Shown: piece by piece, positions 1 through 62,949 of the stretch
How positions within the stretch are numbered: the first letter of the stretch is position 1
How the letters are laid out: each line of letters starts with the position of its first letter
Source: Vandiemenella viatica
Lineage: Eukaryota; Arthropoda; Insecta; Orthoptera; Morabidae
NCBI GenBank assembly: GCA_031002005.1
Contig: JARYHS010013630.1
Coordinates: forward strand, 27,867,112 to 27,931,111
Reading direction: 5' to 3'
Length of the DNA stretch: 64,000 nt
The notes under the pieces: generated by a model
The model's input: the letters and a program-made list of their open reading frames with translations, nothing else
Told to the model about the DNA's origin: nothing
The model's database searches: none
Translations under genes and position numbers: made by a program

Positions 1-231
1 CTTGCCAATCAGTTTCAAAAATTATACATATAATAAGTTTTTTAAATGCCTTCTGTTGTGCAAAAACTGACACTTACAACTTCATTATGTTGTTTGCTAA
101 CAAATCTATATTTTTTAAAAATATAAATATTTGCTGTGGCAGGTACAAAATACAAATATTGTTACTCGACCCTTACAGTTGAAGGACAGATGTTCATTAC
201 ACACAAGGGACTCAAGGGTCCAAATGAGACA

Positions 232-416
232 ATGTTGGTTTTTCCACAACAAAGGGAATTTAAAAAAAACTTATATGCATAATTGTTGAAACTGATTGCC
301 GAGAATTATCTGTATACACATTTGAATAAATAAAAAAAACTGCCAGCAGCAAGATTTGATCCAGTATGAAGGGCTTATGAGACAAAGAGGTTGCCTGCTG
401 CGCCACACACCCCTGA
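232..416 (-). mobile_element. tRNA-derived SINE, reverse orientation
   Basis: On the reverse strand the head carries an A-box-like TGGCGCAGCAGG and a weak B-box GGATCAAATC. A T-rich linker and a body shared with the start of the window follow. Positions 1 to about 72 are the tail of a forward copy of the same SINE, seen complete at 51842-52010, so the two form an inverted pair about 160 bp apart. The 102-codon frame at 391-699 starts inside this SINE and is not a gene. Confidence 0.6.
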
Positions 417-830
417 AAATCTACCTAACGTAAGAAGTATTTGCACGCAACGGAATATTTCATTGCCAATTTTCTTGACAAAACTGAAGAAGCACATGTT
501 ACTACTTTGCCACATTACATCACTGGCCATGAGCTTTTATTACACACAGTATGAACTGAATCTGAATATTACAATTGGAAGCTTCACCTTGTTAGTTTTG
601 TTTCTTCTGACCGTCTGCTATAACTTAAAATGGACCTTGCAATGTTCATGGATTTATTTAAATTGTTACCAGATCTTCAAACCACTATGTAAAAGATAAT
701 TTTCATGTTGACTGAACAACATGCAATATGTACATTTGCTCAAATGAAAATAATTTAAGTATGTTTCACCTAAAAAAATTACTCTGAAAAAAAAAAAAAA
801 AAAATCTTATTAATCATAAAACCACATTTA

Positions 831-1023
831 GCTGGCCTCGGTAGCGTAGGGGCTAAAGTACTAGCTCTGCGTACTGAAGGTCGCCGGTTCGAGTCTGGCC
901 AACGGCATGGGTGTTTAACTGTTGTGTCTGTGAATTTCATGTCCATCCAGTGGTGTGTCTAATTAGGTGGAAAAAATTCATCAGACTGGCTGTATGGTCC
1001 AAGCTGCCGAAAGCCAAAAAAAA
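831..1023 (+). mobile_element. tRNA-derived SINE (family T2)
   Basis: The tRNA-like head has A box TAGCGTAGGGGC and B box GGTTCGAGTC, followed by a non-tRNA body that ends in an A-run. It is flanked by a near-perfect duplication, ccacattta (822-830) and cctcattta (1024-1032), as expected for LINE-driven retroposition. An acceptor stem cannot be closed and the head continues into the body, so this is a SINE and not a tRNA gene. The same copy is in block B at 52769-52961. Confidence 0.8.
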
Positions 1024-1392
1024 CCTCATTTAAAAAAATTGATAGAATGAATGAAATATTGGTAGGAATATATGTATGTTAAAACGAATGTACCTGCCAG
1101 TTCGGTCAAGCATTTTATACACTAATCTCACAACCAACAAATATAGCATTTCATTCCTACCTTCCTTTTGGAAAGAGAAGGTGGGGAACACAGATACATA
1201 TTGAAGCTAATGTAATGTAGGAAAAATAATGAGTATAAACACAAGTCTGTGAATTTTTGACAAAAGATATACTTTTTCAAAACCTGCAAATGATGGTCAC
1301 ATTTTCCACATCTCTTCGGGCTGATAAATCTTCTCCTAATTGCTTTTTAGCAATTGTTTTTACCCTTGGCACAATAACTCATTAATTCATAC

Positions 1393-1393
<1 letters not shown>

Positions 1394-1430
<37 letters not shown>

Positions 1431-1437
1431 GCTAGTG
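1394..1437. repeat. Poly-T insertion specific to copy A
   Basis: A run of about 35 T, ending in ggctag, interrupts sequence that is continuous in copy B near 53330. It is either a length-variable homopolymer, a minimal retroposed tail or an assembly artefact. Confidence 0.6.
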
Positions 1438-1801
1438 GTATCTTGTTTCAGCTAGATTGATAACTTTCCTTTAATGTTCATGTGCTCCTACAACACCTTC
1501 ACCTCATAGCATGTCTAATCAATTCTGTAACATATGATAGTCTAGTAATGATGGGCTGGTATCATTACATAGAATATTTTATCTTGAATCTCAACATTAT
1601 TGGAGGATGATAGTTGCACAACTTTTTCAGGTTGGTAGGTTTTGTATGGACCTATGTGTAGAGGAAGTGGCTGAACAAGTACACATCCATCCAGGAAAGG
1701 GGGCTTGGGTGTGCGAGTAGGATTTCCTCTTAGCCTCCTTAACTAACTCAATTACCATAATAAACTTCATATCACCTTATTCCCACATCCCTCATCACTT
1801 T

Positions 1802-3016
1802 GGGATCGTGCACAAACTACGTGGCTTGGTCCAGGGGGGGGGGGGGATTAGCTGGAACGCTACCGCTGAGCTACGTGGGGGGGGGGGGGGTCCGAGTCAG
1901 GCCACGTAGCTTTCCTTTCATAACATTTTTCTCAGTTAAAATGAGGTACAGAACACACAACAGCATGAGGATATTTATTTCCCTCAGTTAATTATCTCCG
2001 TATGTAATTTACAATTGTCTGACAAGAGAAAGCAGAACAAAATGACTTCTGGAATCAAAAGGGGAAAAAAGCTACGTGCTATGTGTGGGGGGAGGGGGGG
2101 TAGAGGCAAAAGTCGCATTGGGCTACGTGAGAGGGGGGGTTCACAGGAGGCCAAAATGGAGCTACGTGATTTATGCATGCTCCCTTTCCTGTGTATGTCC
2201 CTCTTCAATGGAAACCTCAGCTTAGCGCAAATCAAGGCTAATAATTACAGTAGTATATGCATTCTGACAACTGCCATCCATATCACACTCAAAGCTTCCT
2301 CCCTCACAGCCTTGACATTCGTCCTGTTTTCAGCATTTTTTAACTTCTCCCGACTCAATCAATCTGTTCAACCACCACACATCACAAAAATTGGATCGCA
2401 ATGCTTTTTGTGTGCACTCTATTCTTTGGCCGAGGAAATTTCAGTTTCATATGTTTTACAATCCTGATGTCATCTGTGATAAGTGATGGCTTATTTCCCT
2501 ATTCTAATTTTTTTTTTTCCAACTTAGTTTCCTTATATACAGTTGCAAGGAAACAATTGCACTGGATAGTGATATGGAATAACAAATTAGGGAGCATCCA
2601 TAAACTACATAGCTCCATTTTGGCGTCCTGTGAACTGCCCCTCCCCCACGTAGTTTGACATTCCTTTTGCCTATACACCCTCCCCTCCCTCCCTCCTGTG
2701 TGGCACGTAGATTTCAACCATATTGATTCCAGAACCTGTGTGGCACGTAGATTTTATCCATATTGATTCAAGAAGACAATTTGTACTCTTTTCTTTTGAC
2801 AGACTATCGCAAATTACGTACGGAGATAATTAAATGGCGGAAATACATATTCACATGCTGTTGTGTGTTCTGTACTTTACTTTAACTGTGACAAAAAACA
2901 TAAATGTAAAGCTACGTGGCTTGGCTCGGAACCCCTCCTCCTCCACGTAGTCAAGAGTAGCTTTCTACCCAACGCCTCCCCCTCTAGGCCGAGCCACATA
3001 GTTTATGGATGCTCCC
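1802..3016. mobile_element. Foldback-type DNA element with ~400-bp inverted arms
   Basis: The left end (1802-2190) and right end (2590-3016) are imperfect inverted copies of each other. Each outer end has a GGGA(T/G)C... tip followed by ACAAACTACGTGG or its variant ATAAACTATGTGG. Both arms carry G-rich stretches, the motif GTACAGAACACACAACAGCA and the motif TTAATTATCTCCGTA. The inner parts of the arms also pair (2120-2190 with 2590-2650, around AGCTCCATTTTGG). No transposase is present, so the element would be non-autonomous. Target duplication is unclear. The open frames at 2015-2658 are arm or loop sequence, not genes. Confidence 0.8.
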
Positions 3017-4098
3017 ATAGGACAGAGAAATGAAGCACTACCTACATCAGATGTTGGCATAATGACAGAAACAAACACAAGAAATATTGCAATTTTTTGG
3101 GTCTCGGTCCCTCGTCAGCTGTAGAACGTGTTGGAGGGTGGTTACTGTAAGCTAATGCCTCAAACAGTGACAAGAAAGATACATGTTAGGGGAAATTTCA
3201 AACAGATGACAGGGAGTGGGGGTTGTAAGTTAAATATAACACCTGAGAATTGCGAAAATAGTAAATACATAATCAAAACAAGTAATGACAACATAAAGAT
3301 ATCATTCATGACACAACTTTTTTCCAACTTAATTTAATTATTAATTCATACACCCATAAGTGATATATCAATGTTTAACATGCACATACTTTTCTCGAGA
3401 ACTGCACTATACAAGACTGAAAATAGCATAAAATTTTGTACAGTTGTTTTCAAGATTAGCATGGTCGTCATTCTTCATTTTATTCTATGCTAGGTACTCA
3501 AAGCATACTGTCATGGCAATTAGATGCTTTATCATCAAGCACTGCTCAAAACTTTGTTTTGTTCAGAATCCACAGCATTTCTTCCTCTTCTTCTTCATAA
3601 GTCGCCTTTTCCTACTGGATGTTGGCGGTCCACATAGCTAGCTCTGCGCGTGAAACTGCAGCACGGAAAGCCTCTCCTGACGTGCAGTTGTACCATCTCC
3701 AAATGTCCTTCAGCCACGAATTCCTTCACCATTTAGAGTGTTAGAAATTTACTACTTGCTTCATAAGTCATGGATGTGTTGGTAATTGAAAAGAAATGTC
3801 CCTCTCAGCCCTCAATAAGTTAAAATGATCTGTGACATACAAATACGTTAATAACATGATGAGACAATGTGACATAGCCCGTTCATCTGAGGTTTACAAA
3901 GGTGTCAATTAATGAGATTTGCTATCATCAGGCATCACCTTGCCTAGCTGATTTTAGGGGTGCAAACTTAGGCTCTTAACTGTAACCTATTAACTATCTT
4001 ACCTTATGGCCTTTTCTACAGGGCAGTCGGAGAATGGCTAACTTCACACACTGTTGACTAGCTTATCAAATCATTGCAGTCATACAGAAGAAAACATA
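3017..4098. other. No recognisable feature
   Basis: This is AT-rich sequence shared with copy B. Short open frames (3128-3337, 3444-3641) have no signal or recognisable domain. Confidence 0.6.
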
Positions 4099-5291
4099 CA
4101 CTGAAGAGTCAAAGAAACTGGTATAGGCATGCATATGCAAACACAGCAGTATGTAAACACTCATAGAGTACTGCGCAGTGGTTGGCAACGCCTATATAAG
4201 ACAACAGTGTCTGGCACAGGTGTTAAGATTGGTTACTGCTGCTGCAATGGCAGGTTATCATGATTTAAGTCAGTTTGAATGTGGTGTTATAGTTCGCACA
4301 CTAGAGATGAAACACAGCATCTCCGAGGTAGCGATGAGGTGGGGATTATCGCATTACGACCATTTCACGAGTGCATGGTGAATATCAGGAATCCGGTTAA
4401 AACATCCATTTCCGAAATCACTATGGGTGGAAAAAGATCCTGCAAGAACGGGACCAACGACAACTGAAGAGAATCATTCAAAGTGACAAAAGTGCAACCT
4501 TTCTGCAAATTGCTGCGGATTTAAATGCTGGGCCATCAACAAGTGTCACCGTGCGAACCATTAAACGAAACATCATCGATATGGGCTTTCGGAGCCGAAG
4601 GCCCACTCGTGTAACCTTGCTGAGTGCACGATACAAAGCTTTACGCCTTGCCTGGGTCCGTCAACACCAACATTAGACTGTTGATGATTGGAAACACGTT
4701 GCCTGATCCGACGATTGTATCGAGTGGATGGATGTGTACGGGTATGGAGACAACCTAATGAATTCACGGACCTGCATGTCAGCAGCGGATTGTTCAAGCT
4801 GGTGGAGGCTCTGTAATGGTGTGGGACATGTGCAGTTGGAGTGACATGGGACCCCTGATACATCCTCATACGACTTTGACAGGTGGCACATTCATACGCA
4901 TCCTGGCTGATAACCTGCATCCATTCATGTCCATTGTGCATTCCGACAGACTTGGGCAATTCCATCAGGACAATGCAACACCCCATACATCCAGAATTTC
5001 TACAGAGTGGCTCCAGGAACACTCTTCTGAGTTTAAACACATCCACTGGCCACCAAACATGAAAATTATTGAGCATATCTGGGATTCCTTACAACATGCC
5101 AATCAGAAGGGATCTCCATACCCTCGTACTCTTACAGATTTATGTACAGCCCTGCAGGATGCCAATTCCCTCCAGCACTACTTCAGACATTAGTCGAGTC
5201 CCATGCCAATATGTGTTGCTCCACTTCTGCATGCTCGCAGGGGCCCTACGCGATATTAGGCAGGTGTACCAGTTTCTTTGGCTCTTCGGTT
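4099..5291 (+). mobile_element. Tc1/mariner-type transposon, inactive
   Basis: The left end CACTGAAGAGTCAAAGAAAC and the right end, read on the reverse strand as ACCGAAGAGCCAAAGAAACT, form terminal inverted repeats. TA dinucleotides flank both ends (4097-4098, 5292-5293), as for the Tc1/mariner superfamily. The length of about 1.19 kb is typical of a one-gene element. The sequence strongly resembles a Tc1-like family that I remember as widespread in arthropod genomes. Copy B holds the same insertion at 56003-57192, so it predates the duplication. Confidence 0.9.
4247..5193 (+). pseudogene. Tc1-like DD34E transposase, broken
   Basis: The N-terminus starts MAGYHDLSQFE and continues with a helix-turn-helix region (residues about 8-40). 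The C-terminal half (4816-5193) keeps the catalytic-core landmarks QDNATPHTS (second aspartate) and IIEHIWDSL (glutamate), in the order expected of DD34E transposases, which cut and rejoin transposon ends in the nucleus. The frame is lost between the two parts: there is a frameshift after about 4380, and in-frame stops such as the TAG in caacattagactg near 4675. Copy B carries the same lesions, plus an extra base near the start codon. It cannot make an active protein. Confidence 0.9.
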
Positions 5292-5317
5292 TAATGGAGA
5301 AACATGGAACCAAGTAA

Positions 5318-5706
5318 TTATTGGTGTAGAGTCTTGGTTAAAGAAGAAAAACTAGACAGTGAGGTATTTACCAACTGTTACAGTTCACTGGTGTTCATAG
5401 ATAATGACCATGAGTTACTTGGGGTAGATTTCTAGGGTAATAAAAAAGAAAAAAAGTGATGGCTGTTTATCACAGTGGAAGAATGACTGATGAACATGAG
5501 GTTCTTGCGCAGAAATTAAATCCATACTCAGATTTCAGAAGTGAGAATAGAATAGTCATTATTGGTGGAGATTTGAACTGGATGGGAAATAAGAATAACA
5601 ATACAAGGGGACAGAGATTTTCTAATACCTTAATGAGGGGAGGAGAGTTTACGCAATTCATACAGCAGAACACTAGGGGACAAACATGTTGGATATCTTA
5701 TTAATA
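5318..5706 (+). pseudogene. LINE endonuclease fragment
   Basis: The frame around 5456-5704 contains VIIGGDLNW, a typical core motif of the apurinic-type endonuclease of non-LTR retrotransposons. This enzyme nicks target DNA to prime reverse transcription. Upstream bases (5318-5455) also align with the second endonuclease copy at 6335-6850. The fragment ends near a stop at 5704 and abuts a second LINE relic. It belongs to the LINE family called alpha here (best copy 43850-45895). Confidence 0.75.
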
Positions 5707-7586
5707 AGATGATAACCTTCCAAATGACAGGCCAGAATGTTAATCATTCACCCAACACGCTCGGTACGAGCAGTTAGGCACAGGCTACAATGTCAAGTTT
5801 TTTCAAACTTAGTGAAACTTTAGTTAAGGTAATAAAGCTATGAAATATCTTTGTAGGGATTTCAATTAGGGGTAGCTTACAGAATATAACTGACAGAAAG
5901 AAGTGTCATAGTATAGAGAGGAAGGTGGTGAAGGTGGCACAACATAACAGGGTGGAACTCGTCTACATCCAGAGAAGCCACGATCGTGCACAGTTGAGCC
6001 ATGCTATAAATAATAATGGAGATGTCGCTTCTGAAAGTAATTATTTCCATCTGGAAATTGTGCCTGTGGACACCATTGATGGGTGTGGTTTCACTAGTCA
6101 TGGCTTACACCTAAATAGAAGAGGTTAGTTTGCCAGTTGTTAGATTAAGCTATGAGGGAACTGACTTCCAGTTATGATGGAGCCTATTTCAGATTAGAGG
6201 CTACTGAACCCGAAAGCAAAAGCACGGCAAGAGAAATCATAAATATTTAAGACAAAGTGGATGCTTATGAGAAAATAAAATAGGTTGTAGCAACACACAA
6301 AAGTATTACAGTTTCATAACTTAATAGAGATACACAAACCACAAGTAGTTATAGGAGTAGAATCTTTGTTAAAGGAAGAAGTGCTTGACAGTGAGGTTTT
6401 CGCCAATGGTTACCAAAGTGAAAGAGGAGAAACTGGTGGAGGGATGTCTATATTGGTTAGCAAAGACAATTACAGTTCACTGGCATTACTAATTATAATT
6501 ATGAGTAACTTGAGGCAGATTTCAGAGATGATGAAATGAAAAACTTAGGGTATTGGCTGCTTACCACAGTGGAAGAACGAATGATGAATGTGAACCTCTT
6601 GGGGAGAAACTAAATTCTTATTTAGAGTTCAGTGGTCGGAGACAAGTGTCGAATGGTTGTTATTGGTGGGAACATAAATTTACCATGTGTCAAATGGGAA
6701 GTTAATAAGATTGATAGCAGCAGGGAAGAGAGATTTATAAATATCTTGAGAAGGGAGGAGGCTTTAAACAAGTGGTAGAGCAGAGCACAAGAGGACCGAA
6801 CATGTTGGATGTGATCCTAATAAGGCTTTATGATAAACTTGTGGGGGTCTCGAGTGACTGAAGGATTAAGAGATCACGAAGCGGATCCAAAGAATATTAG
6901 TAAACAAGTGGCCAGTGGTAAGAACAATTAAGAAATGGCACATATTTCACAACTGAAGAGATATTTCAAAGTAAGAGTCAGCATTAAGAAAGATAACAAA
7001 AGTACATTGGAGTCGAAGTGGGAACAGTTACAGGGGATAAAAATAAAGGCGGAAGAAATATTTATTTCAAAACCAAAAATAAAGAGAAGTATATAATCTA
7101 CATACTATAATCAAAAGGTGAGGAGACTAAGGACTTTGGTAAGAAGAGAAACCAACATAGTTAAGAGAGAGCAGGGTAATAGGTAACACTTGAAATTACT
7201 AAACAAGGTATTAATAACAGCAAAAAGGAAAGAAAAACCTTGGTTAGTGACGAATGTTATGAATACATGTGGACCACTAAATGATATTATGTAGAAATTT
7301 CTTTGGCCATGTTAGAAATCTGAAGGGATGTTAAGGTATTCAGACAACTGTAGATAAGGATGGAAAAGTAATAATGGATTTGAAAAAGGCAGAGATGGTG
7401 CAACTGGATGGTATCGTGAAAACATGTTCAGTCAACTGGCTCTGCTATCTTCATCAGTTGTCATGTGGCTTCCAGTGGTTGTAAGTCCCAACTGACTTGC
7501 CTCATGTCCACTTTTATCACTGTGCTGTGCCTGTCCGCTGCTACATGCCAGTGGATGTCATAGAGGATTAAAAACTGTGGTCAGAC

Positions 7587-8673
7587 TAGTGTTGTAAAAA
7601 AACAGTTTTTTTTTCTGACGTGAAAAAAAACATGAAAAAAAAAATTGAAAAAAACATGTTTTTTTTCATAACTACTAAATTTCAAATTTTTAAGGCATTT
7701 ATCACTTAATATGACTGTTTTAGAGTTTATACTAAGTACTTATCTTACTTTTAAATCTACTATAACTTTCTGGTTAAGTAGAAAAAAAAATTACAAAAAT
7801 ATTGGTAACATCGACTGAAGTTTTCTTTTACGAAAGGGGACTTCCCGAAAAGGCTAGGTTGCGTGAGAAGGAATCCCCGTTCGGCTGTTCCCCATTGTTT
7901 GGATTGATACTCGCTATTTGAACTAGTGCTGCCAGGCCCTACAAATTTATCTGTAGACCTACGAATCTTTTTTCAAAAAATTAGGAAATTTAACTACGGT
8001 TTTTTGCCTCTTTTTATTACTTGTTGTGCTTTCCTTATATTTGTATACTTGTTAAACTCACAGCGTATAGTGATACTCAGTCATTGTCAGTAATTATGAA
8101 TAATTTCCTTGCAACCGTTGGCGTAAACCAACGATTGAAAACAAATAAAGCTCCTATTTTGTATGATAATATATTTAAATTCTTAAAAGACCGTAATACA
8201 GAACTATCGGCGCAGTCTTCATTCACAGTGTGTACTTTGCTCACAATTTAAAATTGCAATCTCAAACAGCTTTTGCATGCAATACGACCGGTAAAAGAAA
8301 ATGTAACTATTTATGAAGTTATGGATCTAGAGTGGACAGAAGAAGAAACAGAAAATTCCAACTCCGACCGAACTAGTGTTGGTAGTACTGATACTAGTGA
8401 ATGTGGTTCCGACATAGAAGATGAATAAAAAATTATGTTACCTATATAGATACATTTATGAATCATTATGTAAGATATAATATGATTTAGTAAGGTTTAA
8501 AACACACATGTAAAATGTAAGTTCCATAAATAAAACTATAATTTATCAAATATATAGTTTTCTGAAAAAAAACCAAATTTAGAAAAAAAACGAGGGTGCT
8601 AAGTTTTTTTTTCATGTTTTTTTTCACAAATCTGAAAAAAAACACATTTTGTTTTTTTCAGTTTGCAACACTA
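7587..8673 (+). mobile_element. Non-autonomous hAT element, absent from copy B
   Basis: The ends TAGTGTTGTAAA and (reverse strand) TAGTGTTGCAAA are inverted repeats, flanked by a perfect 8-bp target duplication ggtcagac (7579-7586, 8674-8681). Copy B has a single ggtcagac at 59499-59506 with nothing inserted. This satisfies the hAT superfamily rule of 8-bp duplications. Subterminal regions repeat the motif catgttttttttca in both orientations, which may be transposase-binding repeats. At 1087 bp it is too short for a full transposase. Confidence 0.95.
8291..8428 (+). pseudogene. Residual acidic C-terminal coding tail in hAT element
   Basis: An open stretch ending at TAA (8426-8428) reads MDLEWTEEETENS and then a Ser/Asp/Glu-rich tail ending CGSDIEDE. 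A similar acidic tail lies at a comparable distance from one end of the hAT element at 30205-31398 (30514-30618, reverse strand). I infer that both are remains of the parent transposase's C-terminus. No catalytic region remains, and the upstream frame (8021-8251) is in a different phase. Confidence 0.45.
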
Positions 8674-9125
8674 GGTCAGACCCTTTACTGTTATCTAATG
8701 GGATAGTATGGAACCAACATTATAGCTGGAGTGGGTTCAATGGAGAGCTACTTAATTTATTCATGGAAATTACCATAGAAGACAGTTAGTACTGATATGA
8801 TAAATTAGCTACATCAAGAGTCTCTAGAAGACAGGAGAGGGATGAGCCTACTGGGAGCATGTAATGAATATTTTGGCAAAGAACTCTGGATGGATAATGG
8901 GGAGAATAATTATGAGTATTGGAAGGGAAGAGGAGATGATGACCATAAACTAGATTTTCATTTCAGCCGTAAGACTGGGAAAGGTTTTATTTGTAGGTAA
9001 GGGAGTTAGGGACTGGAGTGCCTTATTGGGGAGGTAGCTGAAACAGTTAAAGGATTTAAACAAATTTTTAAGGCATATTAGGGAACTGAAAGTGGGGCAC
9101 CAAGTTCCATTACAAGTGGTTAATT

Positions 9126-10492
9126 AATAGCAATTTTGATCTGTAAAAACTCCTATAACATTAATAATTTGAAAATAGAGACAATGATACTGCTGTTTTT
9201 GTGTTTGTCCTGGGCCTTCATCCATGGTAGGAGACAGGAAATTTTCCTCTTTCCTCCTTTTTACATAAAAATATAATAACACAAATAATTAAACATTATA
9301 TTGGGATAAAACTAAATGTAACCAAGATACTTTGTAGAAAATGATAAATTAGTGCTTTTCTTACTATTTTATATGAAGTAATTTGGTGCAAAAGTTAAGA
9401 GATGATAGCAGCCATTTTTTCAGACTTTCCATAACCACACTTCCAGAAGGGAATTCGCTAACTGTGGAAACTAGAACACTGAACGAAAGGAGGATTGTGT
9501 AGAAACATAAATGCATTATAACCTAAAAATAATACACTCTTTTCAATGCCAAGCAGAAAAAACTAAACAGAAATTGAAAACTGATGCAATGGGACTAATC
9601 CACTTGACAAGTGATGTTACTGACACAGACAAACTTCTGACATTATACATACTAGCATCTGGAGATCTTGTAACATCATTAAATAATCAACTCTTGGAGT
9701 TATATACCTGCCAAATCTTTACAAAATGTGTATCTCCTAAAAAAAGGTCTAGGATTTCAATCATTAGATATTATTATTACAAGATCTTGCCAGAGTTATG
9801 TTTCTAAAGTATTTACATTTTAATATTTTGAAAATATTATATGAATAATTCCTGATAAATATGGCCACAAAAACTTTAATTTACAAAGCATTTACAGATT
9901 TCAGCTTGGTGCTTAAGCACTAATGAACCTACAGTTTCAAAATTAAAAATGCACACCAAGGCGGAATCTGGATTTGATTCTCCACATTATTGTTTGATAA
10001 ATGAGATATCATGTGACTTCCAGGGTGATGTTAAATGGATTTTCCTCAACCCCCTTCAAACTTTTTCTCACTTGGAATTTTTATCCTCTGTCAAAAATTG
10101 TGTTTTTTTGCAACAACAAACTAACATTTTTAAAAGACATTGTAAAATTAGTCACATTTGAAAGTTTAAGCAACCACCTTCAGTAGAAGCATTATAAATC
10201 TTTTTTACAAAAATTAGCAATAACATAATAAGAAACTTAAAACTCAAATCTTATATTCCAAGACCTTGGCTCCTTGTTAAACATAGTACACCATTTTCAA
10301 AATAATTCATTACAATCAAAATCCTAGTCTTATACTTGTCAGAGATTTAATTTAATGTATAGCTACACAAAAACAAAGGCATTTATTATATTAGAAAATA
10401 TTTATTTAAAAAAAATTACACTTAAATTACACTGATTTTCAATTACATCACAAATATTTTATCTACTCACATAAAATAGAAAGTCTTGTATG
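9126..10492. other. No recognisable gene
   Basis: This is AT-rich sequence shared with copy B. The open frame at 9511-9807 is not conserved in frame between the copies (single-base indels near 9541 and 9793), which argues against coding. Confidence 0.6.
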
Positions 10493-10741
10493 AATCTCAT
10501 TGTTTCTAGAACTTTGATAACCACTGAACATAAAAAAACAGCATTATAAATGCAGCACAGAGCACTATTTTGTTAAACAGCTGTTTGGAGTAGATTGATT
10601 TTATTCATACCAAGCACTACAATCTCATTGTTTCTAGAACTTTAAACATAAAAAACAGCATTATAAATGCAGCACAGAGGCACTGTTTTATTAAAAAAAC
10701 AGCTGTTTGGAGCAGATGATTTTATTCATCCCGAGCACTAC
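10493..10741 (+). repeat. 128-bp tandem duplication (two units)
   Basis: Two adjacent units start with aatctcattgtttctagaac at 10493 and 10621. They share acagcattataaatgcagca and aacagctgtttggag, with minor indels between them. The pair is preserved in copy B (61321 and 61448). Confidence 0.85.
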
Positions 10742-11447
10742 TGCTCTCAGATTCTTCTATTATTTCCTGCAATAAAAAAATTAATTACTACTGTTGCAAA
10801 CAGGTGAAGATTTTTTCTGGCTGCAACTAATGATCACTGCCAAATAGATGACACAGCAATCACAAAATACAATACATAAAAGATAACAATAAATTATTTT
10901 TGTACCATCAGTTGAAGTTATACATTCCTGACAGTGTTGAGAATAATAAAATAGTCTCAATAGGGCAGTTACTGTTGCAATACCAAAGGAAATAGTTTGT
11001 CCTGATCTGTTTTCTTGGTTCTCTGTGTGGAGACTCATAAAAATGTATAAAAGGGTGACATGAAGGAGGAATGGGAATTATCAGATGTAAGTATTTATAT
11101 ACATAACATTTTAATTAAGTTTAGTCAGACTGAATGGATGTCAGTCTTCAGGGGTGATGGGTGGTATAGTAAACCCTTGGGTTACTGTAAGCCACAGGTT
11201 GCGACAAGGTAAAGAAATCAGTTCGGGCAGTGTAATGCTGTCCTAGCAGGAGCTATGGCCAAATAAGGACCCTAAGTCAGCAGGATTAGGCTGTGTGAGA
11301 GAGAGTCTGAACTGTAATGATGGCATTTTCCTGGAATTTGATAGGGCCAAAGGTATCCCCACTCTTATGGAAATGGTGGGATTAAGCTTAACAAAACCTA
11401 CTTGCTGAGCCACCTTGGTCTACTCAGCTGCTTGTTAACTTTGTGTA

Positions 11448-11562
11448 TTAATATAGTCTTCTCAGATGACTAGCTGAGTGAGCAGGGTATTTTGGCAATA
11501 GGAATCTCTGTCTGAGAAAACACCCTGCTCACTCGGCTAGTCACCAGAGAAGATTATATTAA
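11448..11562. repeat. Hairpin with ~46-bp arms
   Basis: The left arm (11448-11494) and right arm (11517-11562) are inverted copies around a short loop. Each reads TTAATATA(G/A)TCTTCTC then ...GACTAGC(T/C)GAGTGAGCAGGGT. It could be a minimal inverted-repeat element. It is present in copy B at 62277-62391. Confidence 0.8.
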
Positions 11563-12071
11563 TTCTCAACGCTGAAAGAAACTTTGATCTTGTGTAACTT
11601 TGTTTATTCATTGACATTTTGGCTCTGTTCCTGCCATCCTGTTTGGGAGTTGCTATGGAGGTAGACACCATGCTGAAGACAACATTGGTTCAGATTTCCT
11701 GGGAAGCTGTCGACAGCATGGTGCAGTGAGATCCTGTTCCTCGTAGAGCGTAGTCAAATGGGAGGGCACAGCACTGATTTGACAGTTATGGGTTGATCAT
11801 ATCAGTCATAAAACAATGTATTAATTACCCTTGCACTCACTCTCCAAACCCCACTTGTAGCCAAGGATGTGGTGCAATTATCCTCTATGGGAAACAGGAA
11901 ACAAGAGAAGAACAAATTGACATTATGTACATTCTAAATACTATTGTAATAAATGTAAATATCTAATTAACAGGGCAGACTTGTACTATAGTCTCGTGTT
12001 GACCAATAATTCCTGTCCACTGCATAATCCTTCTCAGGAAGTTGCGTTATTGATGAAAGTAGTAGGCAGTT

Positions 12072-46769: not shown

Positions 46770-46774
46770 AGATT

Positions 46775-50560: not shown

Positions 50561-51017
50561 TTCTCCAACTCACGTGCGTTTCCAGAAAGGCATAAAGATT
50601 ACATGAAAAAACCCTAATGACAGAAGACTTCCACAAAGACATCCAGAGCTACGTGAATCAAAAAATGTGTGTGTATAGTAGAATATTACCTAGAAAAATG
50701 CTCTTCCTTTTGGACAAACACCTTTTTATAACATTGGTGTTAATACAGCACATTCAGTGTGCAGTTACATTTGGTATTTGACTCATCTATTATTAGATGA
50801 AATATATTTTATTAGACATCATAGATTTTCAGTAATATATTTCCAGTGTAAGAGTTTAAAGCAAAGAGAATGAAAAAATGATATATTAATGCAAAATTCT
50901 TAAAAGCAACTGATAATATTGAAAATTGTAATTACTTCCTTACAGAATCATTTTTTGCTTTCAAATAACCAACTGATACAAAACTTTGATCCAAATGATT
51001 TTTTTCCTTGGTTTCAG

Positions 51018-51224: not shown

Positions 51225-51304
51225 TAAAACATCATAAGGCTTATTCTCTACAAGTGGCTTAATGCTATAGATCATAAATCTGTAAAAATATTGTCACAAA
51301 AATC

Positions 51305-51310
51305 AATAAA
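51305..51310 (+). terminator. Polyadenylation signal AATAAA
   Basis: AATAAA lies about 80 bp after the stop codon of the cuticle gene, within caataaaataag. Plausible 3' end signal. Confidence 0.55.
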
Positions 51311-51841
51311 ATAAGATTACTGGAGAGAGTATTAATGATTTGGATGCACTGAGATTCACAATTACTTGATTTCAAATCTTCAGTGGCTATTCCTATTTCC
51401 AATAACATCAAAGACTTGCAGGGATAGTACATTACTGGACATGTCTGGTTTCCTTCCCAATCACAATTCAGAACTCTTGTTCCCTCGGTGTTGCGATGTA
51501 TCTTAAAAACATACAATAAAACTTGATGTAAGAGGCTTTATGGTTACTTTCTTTTTATAGCATTAAAGCATATACATATAAAATTTTGATTTTAAGTGTC
51601 AGATTAAGTGCCTTATGTTAATATTATGAAGTGTTATTGACCTTCTGACAGAATTTCACTTACAAGGAGAGGCCGCAAATTGTAAAATTCAGATTCGATT
51701 CATACTGCGTGTAATAAAAGCTAATGGGCTAAGGTGTAATGTGACAAAGAAGTAGCACGAGCTTCTTCGCTGTTGTCAAGAAAATCAGCATTGAAATGTT
51801 CCATTCCGTTCAAATACTTTCTCTGTCAAATAGATTTGAAG

Positions 51842-52010
51842 GGGCATGTGGTGCAGTGAGCAAGCTTTCTGCTTCGTAAAACCAATATCACCACATCGAA
51901 TCTCTTTTTTATTTATTAAAATGTGTATACAGATGATTCTTGCCAATCAGTTTCAAAAATTATACATATAATAAGTTTTTTAAATGCCTTCTGTTGTGCA
52001 AAAACTGACA
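51842..52010 (+). mobile_element. tRNA-derived SINE, forward, at start of copy B
   Basis: Head catgtggtgcagtgagcaag with A-box-like segment and a degraded B box acatcgaatctc, then a T-rich linker and body that matches the reverse copy at 52170-52355. Copy A shows only its tail because the window begins inside it. Confidence 0.65.
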
Positions 52011-52169
52011 CTTACAACTTCATTATGTTGTTTGCTAACAAATCTATATTTTTTAAAAATATAAATATTTGCTGTGGCAGGTACAAAATACAAATATTGT
52101 TACTCGACCCTTACAGTTGAAGGACAGATGTTCATTACACACAAGAGGACTCAAGGGTCCAAATGAGAC

Positions 52170-52355
52170 AATGTTGGTTTTTCCACAACAAAGGGAATTT
52201 AAAAAAAACTTATATGCATAATTGTTGAAACTGATTGCCGAGAATTATCTGTATACACATTTGAATAAATAAAAAAAACTGCCAGCAGCAAGATTTGATC
52301 CAGTAATGAAGGGCTTATGAGACAAAGAGGTTGCCTGCTGCGCCACACACCCCTG
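52170..52355 (-). mobile_element. tRNA-derived SINE, reverse (copy B)
   Basis: Counterpart of 232-416. Makes an inverted pair with the copy at 51842-52010. Confidence 0.6.
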
Positions 52356-52768
52356 CAAATCTACCTAACGTAAGAAGTATTTGCACGCAACGGAATATTT
52401 CATTGCCAATTTTCTTGACAAAACTGAAGAAGCACATGTTACTACTTTGCCACATTACATCACTGGCCATGAGCTTTTATTACACACAGTATGAACTGAA
52501 TCTGAATATTACAATTGGAAGCTTCACCTTGTTAGTTTTGTTTCTTCTGACCGTCTGCTATAACTTAAAATTGGACCTTGCAATGTTCATGGATTTATTT
52601 AAATTGTTACCAGATCTTCAAACCACTATGTAAAAGATAATTTTCATGTTGACTGAACAACATGCAATATGTAACATTTGCTCAAATGAAAATAATTTAA
52701 GTATGTTTCACCTAAAAAAATTACTCTGAAAAAAAAAAAAAATCTTATTAATCATAAAACCACATTTA

Positions 52769-52961
52769 GCTGGCCTCGGTAGCGTAGGGGCTAAAGTACT
52801 AGCTCTGCGTACTGAAGGTCGCCGGTTCGAGTCTGGCCAACGGCATGGGTGTTTAACTGTTGTGTCTGTGAATTTCATGTCCATCCAGTGGTGTGTCTAA
52901 TTAGGTGGAAAAAATTCATCAGACTGGCTGTATGGTCCAAGCTGCCGAAAGCCAAAAAAAA
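52769..52961 (+). mobile_element. tRNA-derived SINE T2 (copy B)
   Basis: Counterpart of 831-1023, same A and B boxes, same flanking duplication (52760-52768, 52962-52970). Confidence 0.8.
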
Positions 52962-53699
52962 CCTCATTTAAAAAAATTGATAGAATGAATGAGATATTGG
53001 TAGGAATATATGTATGTTAAAACGAATGTACCTGCCAGTTCGGTCAAGCATTTTATACACTAATCTCACAACCAACAAATATAGCATTTCATTCCTACCT
53101 TCCTTTTGGAAAGAGAAGGTGGGGAACACAGATACATATTGAAGCTAATGTAATGTAGGAAAAATAATGAGTATAAACACAAGTCTGTGAATTTTTGACA
53201 AAAGATATACTTTTTCAAAACCTGCAAATGATGGTCACATTTTCCACATCTCTTCGGGCTGATAAATCTTCTCCTAATTGCTTTTTAGCAATTGTTTTTA
53301 CCCTTGGCACAATAACTCATTAATTCATACTGGTGGTATCTTGTTTCAGCTAGATTGATAACTTTCCTTTAATGTTCATGTGCTCCTACAACACCTTCAC
53401 CTCATAGCATGTCTAATCAATTCTGTAACATATGATAGTCTAGTAATGATGGGCTAGTATCATTACATAGAATATTTTATCTTGAATCTCAACATTATTG
53501 GAGGATGATAGTTGCACAACTTTTTCAGGTTGGTAGGTTTTGTATGGACCTATGTGTAGAGGAAGTGGCTGAACAAGTACACATCCATCCAGGAAAGGGG
53601 GCTTGGGTGTGCGAGTAGGATTTCCTCTTAGCCTCCTTAACTAACTCAATTACCATAATAAACTTCATATCACCTTATTCCCACATCCCTCATCACTTT

Positions 53700-54917
53700 G
53701 GGATCGTGCACAAAATACGTGGCTTGGTCCAGGGGGGGGGGGGGATTAGCTGGAACGCTACGCTGAGCTACGTGGGGTGGGGGCGGGGGGGTCCGAGTCA
53801 GGCCACGTAGCTTTCCTTTCATAACATTTTTCTCAGTTAAAATGAGGTACAGAACACACAACAGCATGAGGATATTTATTTCCCTCAGTTAATTATCTCC
53901 GTTTGTAATTTACAATTGTCTGACAAGAGAAAGCAGAACAAAATGTCTTCTGGAATCAAAAGGGGAAAAAAGCTACGTGCTATGTGTGGGGGGGAGGGGT
54001 GGTAGAGGCAAAAGTCGCATTGGGCTACGTGAGAGGGGGGGTTCACAGGAGGCCAAAATGGAGCTACGTGATTTATGCATGCTCCCTTTCCTGTGTATGT
54101 CCCTCTTCAATGGAAACCTCAGCTTAGCGCAAATCAAGGCTAATAATTACAGTAGTATACGCATTCTGACATCTGCCATCCATATCACACTCAAAGCTTC
54201 CTCCCTCACAGCCTTGACATTCGTCCTGTTTTCAGCATTTTTTAACTTCTCCCGACTCAATCAATCTGTTCAACTACCACACATCACAAAAATTGGATCG
54301 CAATGCTTTTTGTGTGCACTCTATTCTTTGGCCGAGGAAATTTCGGTTTCATATGTTTTACAATCCTGATGTCATCTGTGATAAGTGATGGCTTATTTCC
54401 TTATTCTAATTTTTTTTTTCCAACTTAGTTTCCTTATATACAGTTGCAAGGAAACAATTGCACTGGATAGTGATATGGAATAACAAATTAGGGAGCATCC
54501 ATAAACTACATAGCTCCATTGTGGCGTCCTGTGAACTGCCCCTCCCCCACGTAGTTTGACATTCCTTTTGCTTATACACCCTCCCCTCCCTCCCTCCTGT
54601 GTGGCACGTAGATTTCATCCATATTGATTCCAGAACCTGTGTGGCACGTAGATTTTATCCATATTGATTCCAGAAGACAATTTGTACTCTTTTCTTTTGA
54701 CAGACTATCGCAAATTACGTACGGAGATAATTAAATGGCGGAAATACATATTCACATGCTGTTGTGTGTTCTGTACTTTACTTTAACTGTGACAAAAAAC
54801 ATAAATGTAAAGCTACGTGGCTTGGCTCGGAACCCCTCCTCCTCCACGTAGTCAAGAGTAGCTTTCTACCCAACGCCTCCCCCTCTAGGCCGAGCCACAT
54901 AGTTTATGGATGCTCCC
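53700..54917. mobile_element. Foldback element (copy B)
   Basis: Counterpart of 1802-3016 with the same two-part inverted arms. Differences cluster in the G-runs (near 53733 and 53774), where lengths vary. Confidence 0.8.
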
Positions 54918-56002
54918 ATAGGACAGAAAAATGAAGCACTACCTACATCAGATGTTGGCATAATGACAGAAACAAACACAAGAAATATTGCAATTTTTTG
55001 GGTCTCGGTCCCTCGTCAGCTGTAGAACGTGTTGGAGGGTGGTTACTGTAAGCTAATGCCTCAAACAGTGACAAGAAAGATACATGTTAGGGGAAATTTC
55101 AAACAGATGACAGGGAGTGGGGGTTGTAAGTTAAATATAACACCTGAGAATTGCGAAAATAGTAAATACATAATCAAAACAAGTAATGACAACATAAAGA
55201 TATCATTCATGACACAACTTTTTTCCAACTTAATTTAATTATTAATTCATACACCCATAAGTGATATATCAATGTTTAACATGCACATACTTTTCTCGAG
55301 AACTGCACTATACAAGACTGAAAATAGCATAAAATTTTGTACAGTTGTTTTCAAGATTAGCATGGTCGTCATTCTTCATTTTATTCTATGCTAGGTACTC
55401 AAAGCATACTGTCATGGCAATTAGATGCTTTATCATCAAGCACTGCTCAAAACTTTGTTTTGTTCAAAATCCACAGCATTTCTTCTTCTTCTTCTTCTTC
55501 ATAAGTCACCTTTTCCTACTGGATATTGGCGGTCCACACAGCTAGCTCTGCGCGTGAAACTGCAGGACGGAAAGCCTCTCCTGACGTGCAGTTGTACCAT
55601 CTCCAAATGTCCTTCAGCCACGAATTCCTTCACCATTTAGAGTGTTAGAAATTTACTACTTGTTTCATAAGTCATGGATGTGTTGGTAATTGAAAAGAAA
55701 TGTCCCTCTCAGCCCTCAATAAGTTAAAATGATCTGTGACATACAAATACGTTAATAACATGATGAGACAATGTGACATAGCCCGTTCATCTGAGGTTTA
55801 CAAAGGTGTCAATTAATGAGATTTGCTATCATCAGGCATCACCTTGCCTAGCTGATTTTAGGGGTGCAAACTTAGGCTCTTAACTGTAACCTATTAACTA
55901 TCTTACCTTATTGCCTTTTCTACAGGGCAGTCGGAGAATGGCTAACTTCACACACTGTTGACTAGCTTATCAAATCATTGCAGTCATACAGTAGAAAACA
56001 TA
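54918..56002. other. No recognisable feature (copy B)
   Basis: Counterpart of 3017-4098. A CTT microsatellite (55484-55500) is longer than in copy A. Confidence 0.6.
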
Positions 56003-57192
56003 CACTGAAGAGTCAAAGAAACTGGTATAGGCATGCATATGCAAACACAGCAGTATGTAAACACTCAGAGTACTGCGCTGTGGTTGGCAACGCCTATATA
56101 AGACAACAGTGTCTGGCACAGGTGTTAAGATTGGTTACTGCTGCTGCAACTGGCAGGTTATCATGATTTAAGTCAGTTTGAATGTGGTGTTATAGTTCGC
56201 ACATTAGAGATGAAACACAGCATCTCCGAGGTAGCGATGAGGTGGGGATTATCGCATTACGACCATTTCACGAGTGCATGGTGAATATCAGGAATCCGGT
56301 AAAACATCCATTTCCGAAATCACTACGGGTGGAAAAAGATCCTGCAAGAACGGGACCAACGACAACTGAAGAGAATCATTCAAAGTGACAAAAGTGCAAC
56401 CTTTCTGCAAATTGCTGCGGATTTAAATGCTGGGCCATCAACAAGTGTCACCGTGCGAACCATTAAACGAAACATCATCGATATGGGCTTTCGGAGCCGA
56501 AGGCCCACTCGTGTAACCTTGCTGAGTGCACGATACAAAGCTTTACGCCTTGCCTGGGTCCGTCAACACCAACATTAGACTGTTGATGATTGGAAACACG
56601 TTGCCTGATCCGACGATTGTATCGAGTGGATGGATGTGTACGGGTATGGAGACAACCTAATGAATTCGCGGACCTGCATGTCAGCAGTGGATTGTTCAAG
56701 CTAGTGGAGGCTCTGTAATGGTGTGGGACATGTGCAGTTGGAGTGACATGGGACCCCTGATACATCCTCATACGACTTTGACAGGTGGCACATTCATACG
56801 CATCCTGGCTGATAACCTGCATCCATTCATGTCCATTGTGCATTCCGACAGACTTGGGCAATTCCATCAGGACAATGCGACACCCCATACATCCAGAATT
56901 TCTACAGAGTGGCTCCAGGAACACTCTTCTGAGTTTAAACACATCCACTGGCCACCAAACATGAAAATTATTGAGCATATCTGGGATTCCTTACAACATG
57001 CCAATCAGAAGGGATCTCCATACCCTCGTACACTTACAGATTTATGGACAGCCCTGCAGGATGCCAATTCCCTCCAGCACTACTTCAGACATTAGTCGAG
57101 TCCATGCCAATATGTGTTGCTCCACTTCTGCGTGCTCGCAGGGGCCCTACGCGATATTAGGCAGGTGTACCAGTTTCTTTGGCTCTTCGGTT
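56003..57192 (+). mobile_element. Tc1/mariner-type transposon, inactive (copy B)
   Basis: Counterpart of 4099-5291, TA at 56001-56002 and 57193-57194, same inverted ends. Confidence 0.9.
56145..57095 (+). pseudogene. Tc1-like transposase, broken (copy B)
   Basis: Same lesions as copy A. In addition, the initiator context reads gcaactggcagg instead of gcaatggcagg, removing the ATG. The C-terminal frame 56718-57095 keeps QDNATPHTS and IIEHIWDSL. Confidence 0.88.
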
Positions 57193-57221
57193 TAATGGAG
57201 AAACATGGAACCAAGTAATTA

Positions 57222-57616
57222 TTGGTGTAGAGTCTTGGTTAAAAGAAGAAAAACTAGACAGTGAGGTATTTATCAACTGTTACAGTTCACTGGTGTTCAT
57301 AGATAATGACCATGAGTTACTTGGGGTAGATTTCTAGGGTAATAAAAAAGAAAAAATCAGAGTGATGGCTGTTTATCACAGTGGAAGAATGACTGATGAA
57401 CATGAGGTTCTTGCGCAGAAATTAAATCCATACTCAGATTTCAGAAGTGAGAATAGAATAGTCATTATTGGTGGAGATTTGAACTGGGTGGGAAATAAGA
57501 CTAACAATACAAGGGGACAGAGATTTTCTAATACCTTAATGAGGGGAGGAGAGTTTACGCAATTCATACAGCAGAACACTAGGGGACAAAACATGTTGGA
57601 TATCTTATTAATAAGA
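57222..57616 (+). pseudogene. LINE endonuclease fragment (copy B)
   Basis: Counterpart of 5318-5706. Here the frame runs a little further, through QNMLDILLIR, because one extra A restores the phase that is lost in copy A. Confidence 0.75.
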
Positions 57617-57757
57617 TGATAACCTTCCAAATGACAGGCCAGAATGTTAATTATTCACCCAACACGCTCGGTACGAGCAGTTAGGCACAGGCTACAATGT
57701 CAAGTTTTTTCAAACTTAGTGAAACTTTAGTTAAGGTAATAAAGCTATGAAATATCT

Positions 57758-59945
57758 TTGTAGGGATTTCAATTAGGGGTAGCTTACAGAATATAACTGA
57801 CAGAAAGAAGTGTCATAGTATAGAGAGGAAGGTGGTGAAGGTGGCACAACATAACAGGGTGGAACTCGTCTACATCCAGAGAAGCCACGATCATGCACAG
57901 TTGAGCCATGCTATAAATATTAATGGAGATGTCGCTTCTGAAAGTAATTATTTCCATCTGGAAATTGTGCCTGTGGACACCATTGATGGGTGTGGTTTCA
58001 CTAGTCATGGCTTACACCTAAATAGAAGAGGTTAGTTTGCCAGTTGTTAGATTAAGCTATGAGGGAACTGACTTCCAGTTATGATGGAGCCTATTTTAGA
58101 TTAGAGGCTGCTGAACCCGAATGCAAAAGCACGGTAAGAGAAATCATAAATATTTAAGACAAAGTGGATGCTTATGAGAAAATAAAATAGGTTGTAGCAA
58201 CACACAAAAGTATTACAGTTTCATAACTTAATAGAGATACACAAACCACAAGTAGTTATAGGAGTAGAATCTTTGTTAAAGGAAGAAGTGCCTTGACAGT
58301 GAGGTTTTCGCCAATGGTTACCAAAGTGAAAGAGGAGAAACTGGTGGAGGGATGTCTATATTGGTTAGCAAAGACAATTACAGTTCACTGGCATTACTAA
58401 ATTATAATTATGAGTAACTTGAGGCAGATTTCAGAGATGATGAAATGAAAAACTTAGGGTATTGGCTGCTTACCACAGTGGAAGAACGAATGATGAATGT
58501 GAACCTCTTGGGGAGAAACTAAATTCTTATTTAGAGTTCAGTGGTCGGAGACAAGTGTCGAATGGTTGTTATTGGTGGGAACATAAATTTACCATGTGTC
58601 AAATGGGAAGTTAATAAGATTGATAGCAGCAGGGAAGAGAGATTTATAAATATCTTGAGAAGGGAGGAGGCTTTAAACAAGTGGTAGAGCAGAGCACAAG
58701 AGGACCGAACATGTTGGATGTGATCCTAATAAGGCTTTATGATAAACTTGTGGGGGTCTCGAGTGACTGAAGGATTAAGAGATCACGAAGCGGATCCAAA
58801 GAATATTAGTAAACAAGTGGCCAGAACTGAAGTGGTTATAAGAACAATTAAGAAATGGCACATATTTCACAACTGAAGAGATATTTCAAAGTAAGAGTCA
58901 GCATTAAGAAAGACAACAAAAGTACATTGGAGTCGAAGTGGGAACAGTTACAGGGGATAAAAATAAAGGCGGAAGAAATATTTATTTCAAAACCAAAAAT
59001 AAAGAGAAGTATATAATCTACATACTATAATCAAAAGGTGAGGAGACTAAGGACTTTGGTAAGAAGAGAAACCAACATAGTTAAGAGAGAGCAGGGTAAT
59101 AGGTAACACTTGAAATTACTAAACAAGGTATTAATAACAGCAAAAAGGAAAGAAAAACCTTGGTTAGTGACGAATGTTATGAATACATGTGGACCACTGA
59201 ATGATATTATGTAGAAATTTCTTTGGCCATGTTAGAAATCTGAAGGGATGGTAAGGTATTCAGACAACTGTAGATAAGGATGGAAAAGTAACCATGGATT
59301 TGAAAAAGGCAGAGGTGGTGCAACTGGATGGTATCGTGAAAACATGTTCAGTCAACTGGCTCTGCTATCTTCATCAGTTGTCATGTGGCTTCCAGTGGTT
59401 GTAAGTCCCAACTGACTTGCCTCATGTCCACTTTTATCACTGTGCTGTGCCTGTCCGCTGCTACATGCCAGTGGATGTCATAGAGGATTAAAAACTGTGG
59501 TCAGACCCTTTACTGTTATCTAATGGGATAGTATGGAACCAACATTATAGCTGGAGTGGGTTCAATGGAGAGCTACTTAATTTATTCATGGAAATTACCA
59601 TAGAAGACAGTTAGTACTGATATGATAAATTAGCTACATCAAGAGTCTCTAGAAGACAGGAGAGGGATGAGCCTACTGGGAGCATGTAATGAATATTTTG
59701 GCAAAGAACTCTGGATGGATAATGGGAGAATAATTATGAGTATTGGAAGGGAAGAGGAGATGATGACCATAAACTAGATTTTCATTTCAGCTGTAAGACT
59801 GGGAAAGGTTTTATTTGTAGGTAAGGGAGTTAGGGACTGGAGTGCCTTATTGGGGAGGTAGCTGAAACAGTTAAAGGATTTAAACAAATTTTTAAGGCAT
59901 ATTAGGGAACTGAAAGTGGGGCACAAGTTCCATTACAAGTGGTTA
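57758..59945 (+). pseudogene. LINE alpha relic, uninterrupted (copy B)
   Basis: Counterpart of 5850-9125 without the hAT insertion: ORF1-end-like piece with HGLHLNRRG (57832-58035), endonuclease region, basic linker and C-terminus. Confidence 0.75.
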
Positions 59946-61320
59946 ATTAATAGCAATTTGATCTGTAAAAACTCCTATAACATTAATAATTTGAAAATAG
60001 AGACAATGATACTGCTGTTTTTGTGTTTGTCCTGGGCCTTCATCCATGGTAGGAGACAGGAAATTTTCCTCTTTCCTCGTTTTTACATAAAAATATAATA
60101 ACACAAATAATTTAAACATTATATTGGGATAAAACTAAATGTAACCAAGATACTTCGTAGAAAATGATAAATTAGTGCTTTTCTTACTTATTTTATATGA
60201 AGTAATTTGGTGCAAAGTTAAGAGATGATAGCAGCCATTTTTTTCAGACTTTCCATAACCACACTTCCAGAAGGGAATTCGCTAACTGTGGAAACTAGAA
60301 CACTGAACGAAAGGAGGATTGTGTAGAAACATAAATGCATTATAACCTAAAAATAATACACTCTTTCAATGCCAAGCAGAAAAAACTAAACAGAAATTGA
60401 AAACTGATGCAATGGGACTAATCCACTTGACAAGTGATGTTACTGACACAGACAAACTTCTGAGATTATACATACTAGCATCTGGAGATCATGTGACATT
60501 ATTAAATAATCAACTCTTGGAGTTATATACCTGCCAAATCTTTACAAAATGTGCATCTCCTAAAAAAAGGTCTAGGATTTCAATCATTAGATATTATTAT
60601 TACAAGATCTTGCAGAGTTATGTTTCTAAAGTATTTACATTTTAATATTTTTGAAAATATTATATGGATAATTCCTGATAAATTATGGCACAAAAACTTT
60701 AATTTACAAAGCATTTACAGATTTCAGCTTGGTGCTTAAGCACTAATGAACCTACAGTTTCAAAATTAAAAATGCACACCAAGGCGGAATCTGGATTTGA
60801 TTCTCCACATTATTGTTTGATAAATGAGATATCATGTGACTTCCAGGGTGATGTTAAATGGATTTTCCTCAACTCCCTTCAAACTTTTTCTCACTTGGAA
60901 TTTTTATCCTCTGTCAAAAATTGTTTTTTTTTGCAATAACAAACTAACATTTTTAAAAGACATTGTAAAATTAGTCACATTTGAAAGTTTAAGCAACCAC
61001 CTTCAGTAGAAGCATTATAAATCTTTTTTACAAAAATTAGCAATAACATAATAAGAAACTTAAAACTCAAATCTTATATTCCAAGACCTTGGCTCCTTGT
61101 TAAACATAGTACACCATTTTCAAAATAATTCATTACAATCAAAATCCTAGTCTTATACTTGTCAGAGATTTAATTTAATGTATAGCTACACAAAAACAAA
61201 GGCATTTATTATATTAGAAAATATTTATTTAAAAAAATTACACTTAAATTACACTGATTTTCAATTACATCACAAATATTTTATCTACTCACATAAAATA
61301 GAAAGTCTTGTATGAAATAG
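59946..61320. other. No recognisable gene (copy B)
   Basis: Counterpart of 9126-10492. Indels between copies break all open frames. Confidence 0.6.
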
Positions 61321-61569
61321 AATCTCATTGTTTCTAGAACTTTGATAACCACTGAACATAAAAAAACAGAATTATAAATGCAGCACAGAGTACTATTTTG
61401 TTAAACAGCTGTTTGGAGTAGATTGATTTATTCATACCAAGCACTACAATCTCATTGTTTCTAGAACTTTAAACATAAAAAACAGCATTATAAATGCAGC
61501 ACAGAGGCACTGTTTTATTAAAAAAAAACAGCTGTTTGGAGCAGATGATTTTATTCATCCCGAGCACTA
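61321..61569 (+). repeat. 127-bp tandem duplication (copy B)
   Basis: Units start at 61321 and 61448. Counterpart of 10493-10741. Confidence 0.85.
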
Positions 61570-62276
61570 CTGCTCTCAGATTCTTCTATTATTTCCTGCA
61601 ATAAAAAAATTAATTACTACTGTTGCAAACAGGTGAAGATTTTTTCTGGCTGCAACTAATGATCACTGCCAAATAGATGACACAGCAATCACAAAATACA
61701 ATACATAAAAGATAATAATAAATTATTTTTGTACCATCAGTTGAAGTTATACATTCCTGACAGTGTTGAGAATAATAAAATAGTCTCAATAGGGCAGTTA
61801 CTGTTACAATACCAAAGGAAATAGTTTGTCCTGATCTGTTTTCTTGGTTCTCTGTGTGGAGACTCATAAAAATGTATAAAAGGGTGACATGAAGGAGGAA
61901 TGGGAATTATCAGATGTAAGTATTTATATACATAACATTTTAATTAAGTTTAGTCAGACTGAATGGATGTCAGTCTTCAGGGGTGATGGGTGGTATAGTA
62001 AACCCTTGGGTTACTGTAAGCCACAGGTTGCGACAAGGTAAAGAAATCAGTTCGGGCAGTGTAATGCTGTCCTAGCAGGAGCTATGGCCAAATAAGGACC
62101 CTAAGCCAGCAGGATTAGGCTGTGTGAGAGAGAGTCTGGACTGTAATGATGGCATTTTCCTGGAATTTGATAGGGCCAAAGGTATCCCCACTCTTATGGA
62201 AATGGTGGGATTAAGCTTAACAAAACCTACTTGCTGAGCCACCTTGGTCTACTCAGCTGCTTGTTAACTTTGTGTA

Positions 62277-62391
62277 TTAATATAGTCTTCTCAGATGACT
62301 AGCTGAGTGAGCAGAGTATTTTGGAAATAGGAATCTCTGTCTGAGAAAACACCCTGCTCACTCGGCTAGTCACCAGAGAAGATTATATTAA
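62277..62391. repeat. Hairpin (copy B)
   Basis: Counterpart of 11448-11562. Confidence 0.8.
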
Positions 62392-62949
62392 TTCTCAACG
62401 CTGAAAGAAACTTTGATCTTGTGTAACTTTGTTTATTCATTGACATTTTGGCTCTGTTCCTGCCATCCTGTTTGGGAGTTGCTATGGAGGTAGACACCAT
62501 GCTGAAGACAACATTGGTTGAGATTTCCTGGGAAGCTGTCGACAGCATGGTGCAGTGAGATCCTGTTCCTCGTAGAGCGTAGTCAAATGGGAGGGCACAG
62601 CACTGATTTGACAGTTATGGGTTGATCATATCAGTCATAAAACAATGTATTAATTACCCTTGCACTCACTCTCCAAACCCCACTTGTAGCCAAGGATGTG
62701 GTGCAATTATCCTCTATGGGAAACAGGAAACAAGAGAAGAACAAATTGACATTATGTACATTCTAAATACTATTGTAATAAATGTAAATATCTAATTAAC
62801 AGGGCAGACTTGTACTATAGTCTCGTGTTGACCAATAATTCCTGTCCACTGCATAATCCTTCTCAGGAAGTTGCGTTATTGATGAAAGTAGTAGGCAGTT
62901 CACCACATATAAACTGCCACTTGGCAAGCAGCTGGTTATAAAGCACAAG

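Follow-up and report, generated by a model that had tools for sequence, protein, structure and literature searches.

A 41–47-kb direct repeat across a scaffold gap at a Vandiemenella viatica cuticle-protein locus: a probable false haplotypic duplication

The window analysed here, a 64,000-nucleotide stretch of the Vandiemenella viatica assembly GCA_031002005.1 (JARYHS010013630.1, positions 27,867,112 to 27,931,111, forward strand), contains an open reading frame (ORF) with a chitin-binding cuticle-protein exon, which was located by ORF listing and Pfam. Three protein relatives of the exon were returned, one of them from the cockroach Diploptera punctata (64% identity), and a pattern search for resilin-type motifs gave none that fitted. 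The exon lies in one of two near-identical blocks, copies A and B, which stand on either side of a scaffold gap (Table 1). All positions are given as window coordinates, with negative values lying to the left of the window.

The original prediction described a direct repeat of ~11 kb, with its true boundaries hidden from view. Such a repeat is present in the assembly: self-comparison within the window gave three direct matches (1–1393 against 51939–53331, 99.3%; 1432–7586 against 53330–59506, 98.6%; 8674–12071 against 59499–62900, 98.7%). Its true extent is about four times longer. Block limits were taken from a self-comparison of 264 kb, comprising the window and 100 kb fetched on each side, at minimum thresholds of 93% identity and 200 bp per match. 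Copy A spans −34733..12071 (46.8 kb, 34.7 kb of it left of the window) and copy B spans 21947..62900 (41.0 kb) in the same orientation, and the fetched flanks thus bring both homology ends into view, at 12071/62900 on the right and at −34733/21947 on the left. The offset between the copies, predicted as 51 kb, is ~51.9 kb near the window start, and insertions widen it to 56.7 kb by the block's left end. The claim that all elements recur in the same order holds for the most part, the exceptions being a 1,095-bp insertion (7579–8673) and a 40-bp T-rich segment (1392–1431), both found only in A.

Genome searches covered the 3.72-Gb assembly (8,965 contigs). When positions 1000–2000 were used as a query, 2 of the 41 matches listed were full-length, at copies A and B; with 40 of 3,001 candidates scored, this count is a lower bound. 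The remaining matches listed were pieces of ~220 bp or less.

Table 1. Features of the window discussed in the text, with their positions, strand and the basis of each assignment.
Feature	Position	Strand	Basis or remark
Right part of copy A	1..12071	+	In-window match; copy A starts at −34733
Insertion, presumably hAT-like; body 7587–8673, between 8-bp direct repeats GGTCAGAC	7579..8681		Single GGTCAGAC in B at 59499–59506
5′ part of a multi-copy, putatively retrotransposon-like element close to where contig X ends	12072..13742	+	Genome search
Terminal 421 bp of contig X, with a single listed match elsewhere (77%)	13743..14163		Genome search, pairwise comparison
1000-N scaffold gap between copies A and B	14164..15163		N-run scan
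Foldback-like (long inverted repeat) element	15164..21946		Multi-copy over 15387–21934; outer terminus 21946/21947
Copy B, allelic or paralogous to −34733..12071	21947..62900	+	Self-comparison, pairwise alignment
495 bp only in B, without a target-site repeat	25303..25797		Pairwise alignment
ORF with chitin-binding cuticle-protein exon (Chitin_bind_4)	50904..51221	+	PF00379, E 2.4e-12; open in B

The 1000-N run is the only one inside the window. It was absent from the original prediction and, lying between the two copies, it changes the reading of the repeat. The sequence to its left, contig X, carries copy A, is at least 114 kb long and ends at 14163; contig Y (15164–72427, 57,264 bp) carries copy B. 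The visible bases between the copies number 8,875, of which ~8.2 kb lies in multi-copy elements. Two further 1000-N gaps occur right of the window (72428–73427 and 130381–131380), and at the thresholds given above neither of them has duplicated flanks within the 264 kb, which reach 32.6 kb to the right of the third gap. With contigs of at least 57 kb here and copies 10 kb apart, a gap falling between the copies by chance would not be very rare, so that the gap alone is weak evidence.

Pairwise alignment of A and B gave 99.13% identity over 40,280 ungapped columns (39,928 matches and 352 mismatches, or 0.87% substitutions). Of its 119 indel events, 99 span at most 10 bases and five are large, at 495–2,190 bp. 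Four of these five are insertions in A bounded by short direct repeats, with an empty site in B. The end repeats are TTATT for a 1,559-bp insertion, TAC for a 2,190-bp one, TA for a 1,430-bp one and GGTCAGAC for the 1,095-bp insertion, whose predicted hAT-like superfamily we assume from the 8-bp length of its target repeats. The repeats TAC and TA are weak evidence alone, and the two cases are carried by their inverted repeats and transposase domains. The 2,190-bp insertion ends in a 23-bp inverted repeat and holds an ORF with the Pfam domains DDE_1 and HTH_Tnp_Tc5; the 1,430-bp insertion has a 61-bp inverted repeat and an ORF with DDE_3 and HTH_Tnp_Tc3_2. These domains are of the Tc1/mariner and pogo/Tigger transposase types.

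Over 36 windows along the alignment, substitutions per kb were overdispersed (variance/mean 1.98). In the initial 1.75 kb of copy B (21947–23700), 55 substitutions (3.1%) separate it from A, compared with ~0.8% elsewhere. At the other extreme, no substitution occurs between 49776 and 52356 (2,580 bp), a tract picked post hoc that holds 12 one-base indels against 4.9 expected; 10 of the 12 are bases missing in A. Across 40 windows, small indels did not track substitution density (Spearman rho −0.18, p 0.28).

The second pro-resilin-like exon predicted upstream of position 1 was found in copy A at −1030..−710. Its presence is expected under both a tandem duplication and a haplotig placed in tandem, and it does not separate them. 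The exon of A carries a +1 and a −1 frameshift, both among the indels of the substitution-free tract, and that of B is open. This suggests, for a tract chosen after the fact, that the frameshifts are consensus errors in contig X rather than the decay of a duplicate gene.

On the right, the homology between A and B extends to 12071/62900, after which B continues into sequence other than that of X. Here contig X enters a multi-copy repeat. Of the 39 other best copies listed for this family (40 of 2,176 candidates scored), 34 start at query positions 15–24, corresponding to 12064–12073 of the window. The sequence TGTGATGATCATATGG, which begins at 12072 in X, also opens the element in the two copies inspected, L029 and L030, placing the stop of copy A at the 5′ end of the family to the base. 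Most copies listed match X no further than ~13745. The 421 bp that follow have a sole listed match, at 77% on contig C4537, which sits in L029 downstream of the same terminus, with the continuation of the element broken between; L030 proceeds differently and gave no match to them. Compared with Y beyond 62900, the head of Y and the next contig, they shared no more than chance matches of up to 24 bp. This stretch could belong to a variant internal segment of the element or be of another nature. On the side of B, the sequence past 62900 was compared with the rest of the 264 kb, and each of the best eight matches listed lies within a short dispersed repeat (63558–63742). In L029, a 900-bp copy of the X-tail repeat lies between two identical 76-bp direct repeats (L029:38–113 and L029:1011–1086), a length uncommon among target-site duplications.

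On the left, the homology adjoins a different element. At the head of contig Y, positions 15387–21934 are covered by copies, listed elsewhere in the genome (33 of 17,396 candidates scored), of a long-inverted-repeat element; none of the other copies listed covers the initial 223 bp of the contig. Self-comparison revealed an inner inverted repeat of 309 bp (15387–15695 and 15803–16108, 98%). In another foldback copy, at ~193.5 Mb on C7729, the contig of the window itself, both arms match up to 21934 (86% and 94% identity), end in ..CACTACT and are flanked by the 6-bp repeat CACATA. The arm in Y ends in ..CATCTACT, right where the homology begins (21947). In X, the foldback site falls within a copy of another repeat that continues across it unbroken; all 39 other listed copies of that repeat also extend across the site, and L034 spans it at 96.3%. 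We considered whether the left edge merely marks two unrelated copies of this other repeat, and rejected this explanation: the repeat ends ~0.4 kb inside, and the homology continues for 40 kb. A plain contig overlap would require the head of Y (15164–21946) to match X to the left of −34733; the two share short dispersed repeats but no long match. The foldback-like family further includes head-to-head copies of ~95% identity on several chromosomes and has a 30-bp minisatellite near its end.

Judged from these features, the repeat is likely to be a false haplotypic (heterotype) duplication, in which two allelic contigs were placed in tandem. Of the two options left by the original prediction, tandem duplication or haplotig, the second is favoured, short of proof, by homology ends that coincide with repeat-family termini facing one gap. 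We infer an allelic, not a paralogous, relation between X and Y, and take the two elements beside the gap, each visible on one side, to be haplotype-specific insertions. Under this model, X and Y would represent two alleles of one locus; the break of X would lie within, or directly behind, a repeat element found only on its haplotype, and that of Y in a palindrome-like foldback element found only on its own. The scaffolder would then have joined the end of X to the start of Y with a standard 1000-N gap, leaving a 41–47 kb overlap unmerged. Allelic contigs set end to start explain the gap, its mostly multi-copy flanks, the ends at repeat termini, the filled and empty insertion pairs and the ~1% divergence. 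The uninterrupted foldback site in X and the four filled/empty insertion pairs argue for the haplotig, although one-sided insertions are also possible between paralogues. The overdispersed substitutions are as expected of alleles, and paralogues could show overdispersion too. The substitution level of 0.87% falls within the heterozygosities of 0.1–1.6% given for vertebrate genomes in Rhie et al. (2021; PMC8081667). The missing overlap at the head of Y at first seemed to speak against allelic contigs, an objection weakened once this head was found to be mostly a multi-copy foldback-like element. Against the haplotig stand the first 223 bp of Y, the elevated substitution level at the start of copy B and the two other gaps, which have no duplicated flanks. 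The terminal 421 bp of X are a further weak point: apart from one weak match they fit neither the other copies of the repeat family nor the flank of B, so under an allelic origin they cannot be the far flank of the insertion, and our confidence was lowered accordingly.

A true tandem segmental duplication, with its junction inside the gap or the adjoining contig ends and one repeat element on the gap side of each unit, appears unlikely. Two direct copies ~52–57 kb apart on one scaffold, each with a cuticle exon, are what it would produce, and one-sided insertions also arise after duplication. Highly identical true duplications also break assemblies, so that near-identical units could themselves account for the contig breaks. 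A hidden junction is possible because the 1000 N need not give the real size of the gap, and the 421 bp, matching neither the flank of B nor most repeat copies, could be that junction. However, no junction is visible in continuous sequence, the stretch where it is expected holds the gap, and the end of copy A and the start of copy B coincide with repeat-family termini. In addition, 62901–72427 has no match longer than ~100 bp in 15164–21946. Given this absence and the coincidence of termini, a tandem origin needs the rest of the first unit, the start of the second and the rest of the foldback element all to be hidden in the gap, or else unit ends that happen by chance to fall on the two termini. 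A real duplication carried by one of the two chromosomes only, a copy-number polymorphism, would look identical in the assembly; it needs everything that the tandem model needs plus the polymorphism, has nothing specific in its favour, and we regard it as very improbable.

Rhie et al. (2021) describe heterotype false duplication, and give tandem copies with a gap between them for homotype errors at contig boundaries; they and Ko et al. (2022; PMC9516828) treat haploid read depth and heterozygous k-mers as proof of false duplication. Compared with the false heterotype duplications described there, the present case is similar in its two near-identical, same-orientation copies adjacent on one scaffold with an assembly gap between them and, possibly, in that one copy seems to carry local base errors. 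It differs in that both breaks lie at or near repeat elements of one copy only.

In its direct orientation and single exon per unit, the locus also resembles one in which a cuticle-protein (PF00379) region has undergone tandem segmental duplication. Unlike such a duplication, it has no junction to be seen, a gap in the interval and a frameshifted exon in A within a substitution-free tract.

The duplicated region is therefore most likely an ordinary assembly artefact and not a duplication of a gene region. Left uncorrected, it would cause what is probably a single pro-resilin-like gene to be annotated twice, with one version resembling a pseudogene. If X and Y are alleles, comparing them yields a short list of transposon insertions for which the species is probably still polymorphic. 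In the improbable event of a true tandem duplication, the locus would hold a recent duplication of at least 47 kb with a cuticle (pro-resilin-like) gene, and seven large structural changes at <1% divergence, namely five insertions in one unit and the foldback element and the 495-bp segment in the other, would imply a burst of transposon activity.

Several further features were observed in the searched contigs and in the fetched flanks. Contigs C7, C4537 and C7729 have near-equal, chromosome-sized lengths (388,957,648, 388,957,591 and 388,957,675 bases), as if they were equal parts cut from a larger chromosome. Left of the window, a tandem array of approximately four 2.1-kb units, 98–99% alike, occupies −55171..−46811, with a single related piece at −63126..−62086. 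A 724-codon ORF on the minus strand (−40371..−38200) lies ~3.5 kb left of copy A; no Pfam family scored above the cut-off in the 600 codons scanned. Right of the window, a 3.7-kb direct repeat (80518–84194 and 87941–91597, 95.9% identity, 7.4 kb apart) contains ORFs that, by eye, resemble a putative reverse transcriptase, and the ORFs at 75739–78436 similarly resemble a putative Maverick/Polinton-type DNA polymerase and its companion protein.
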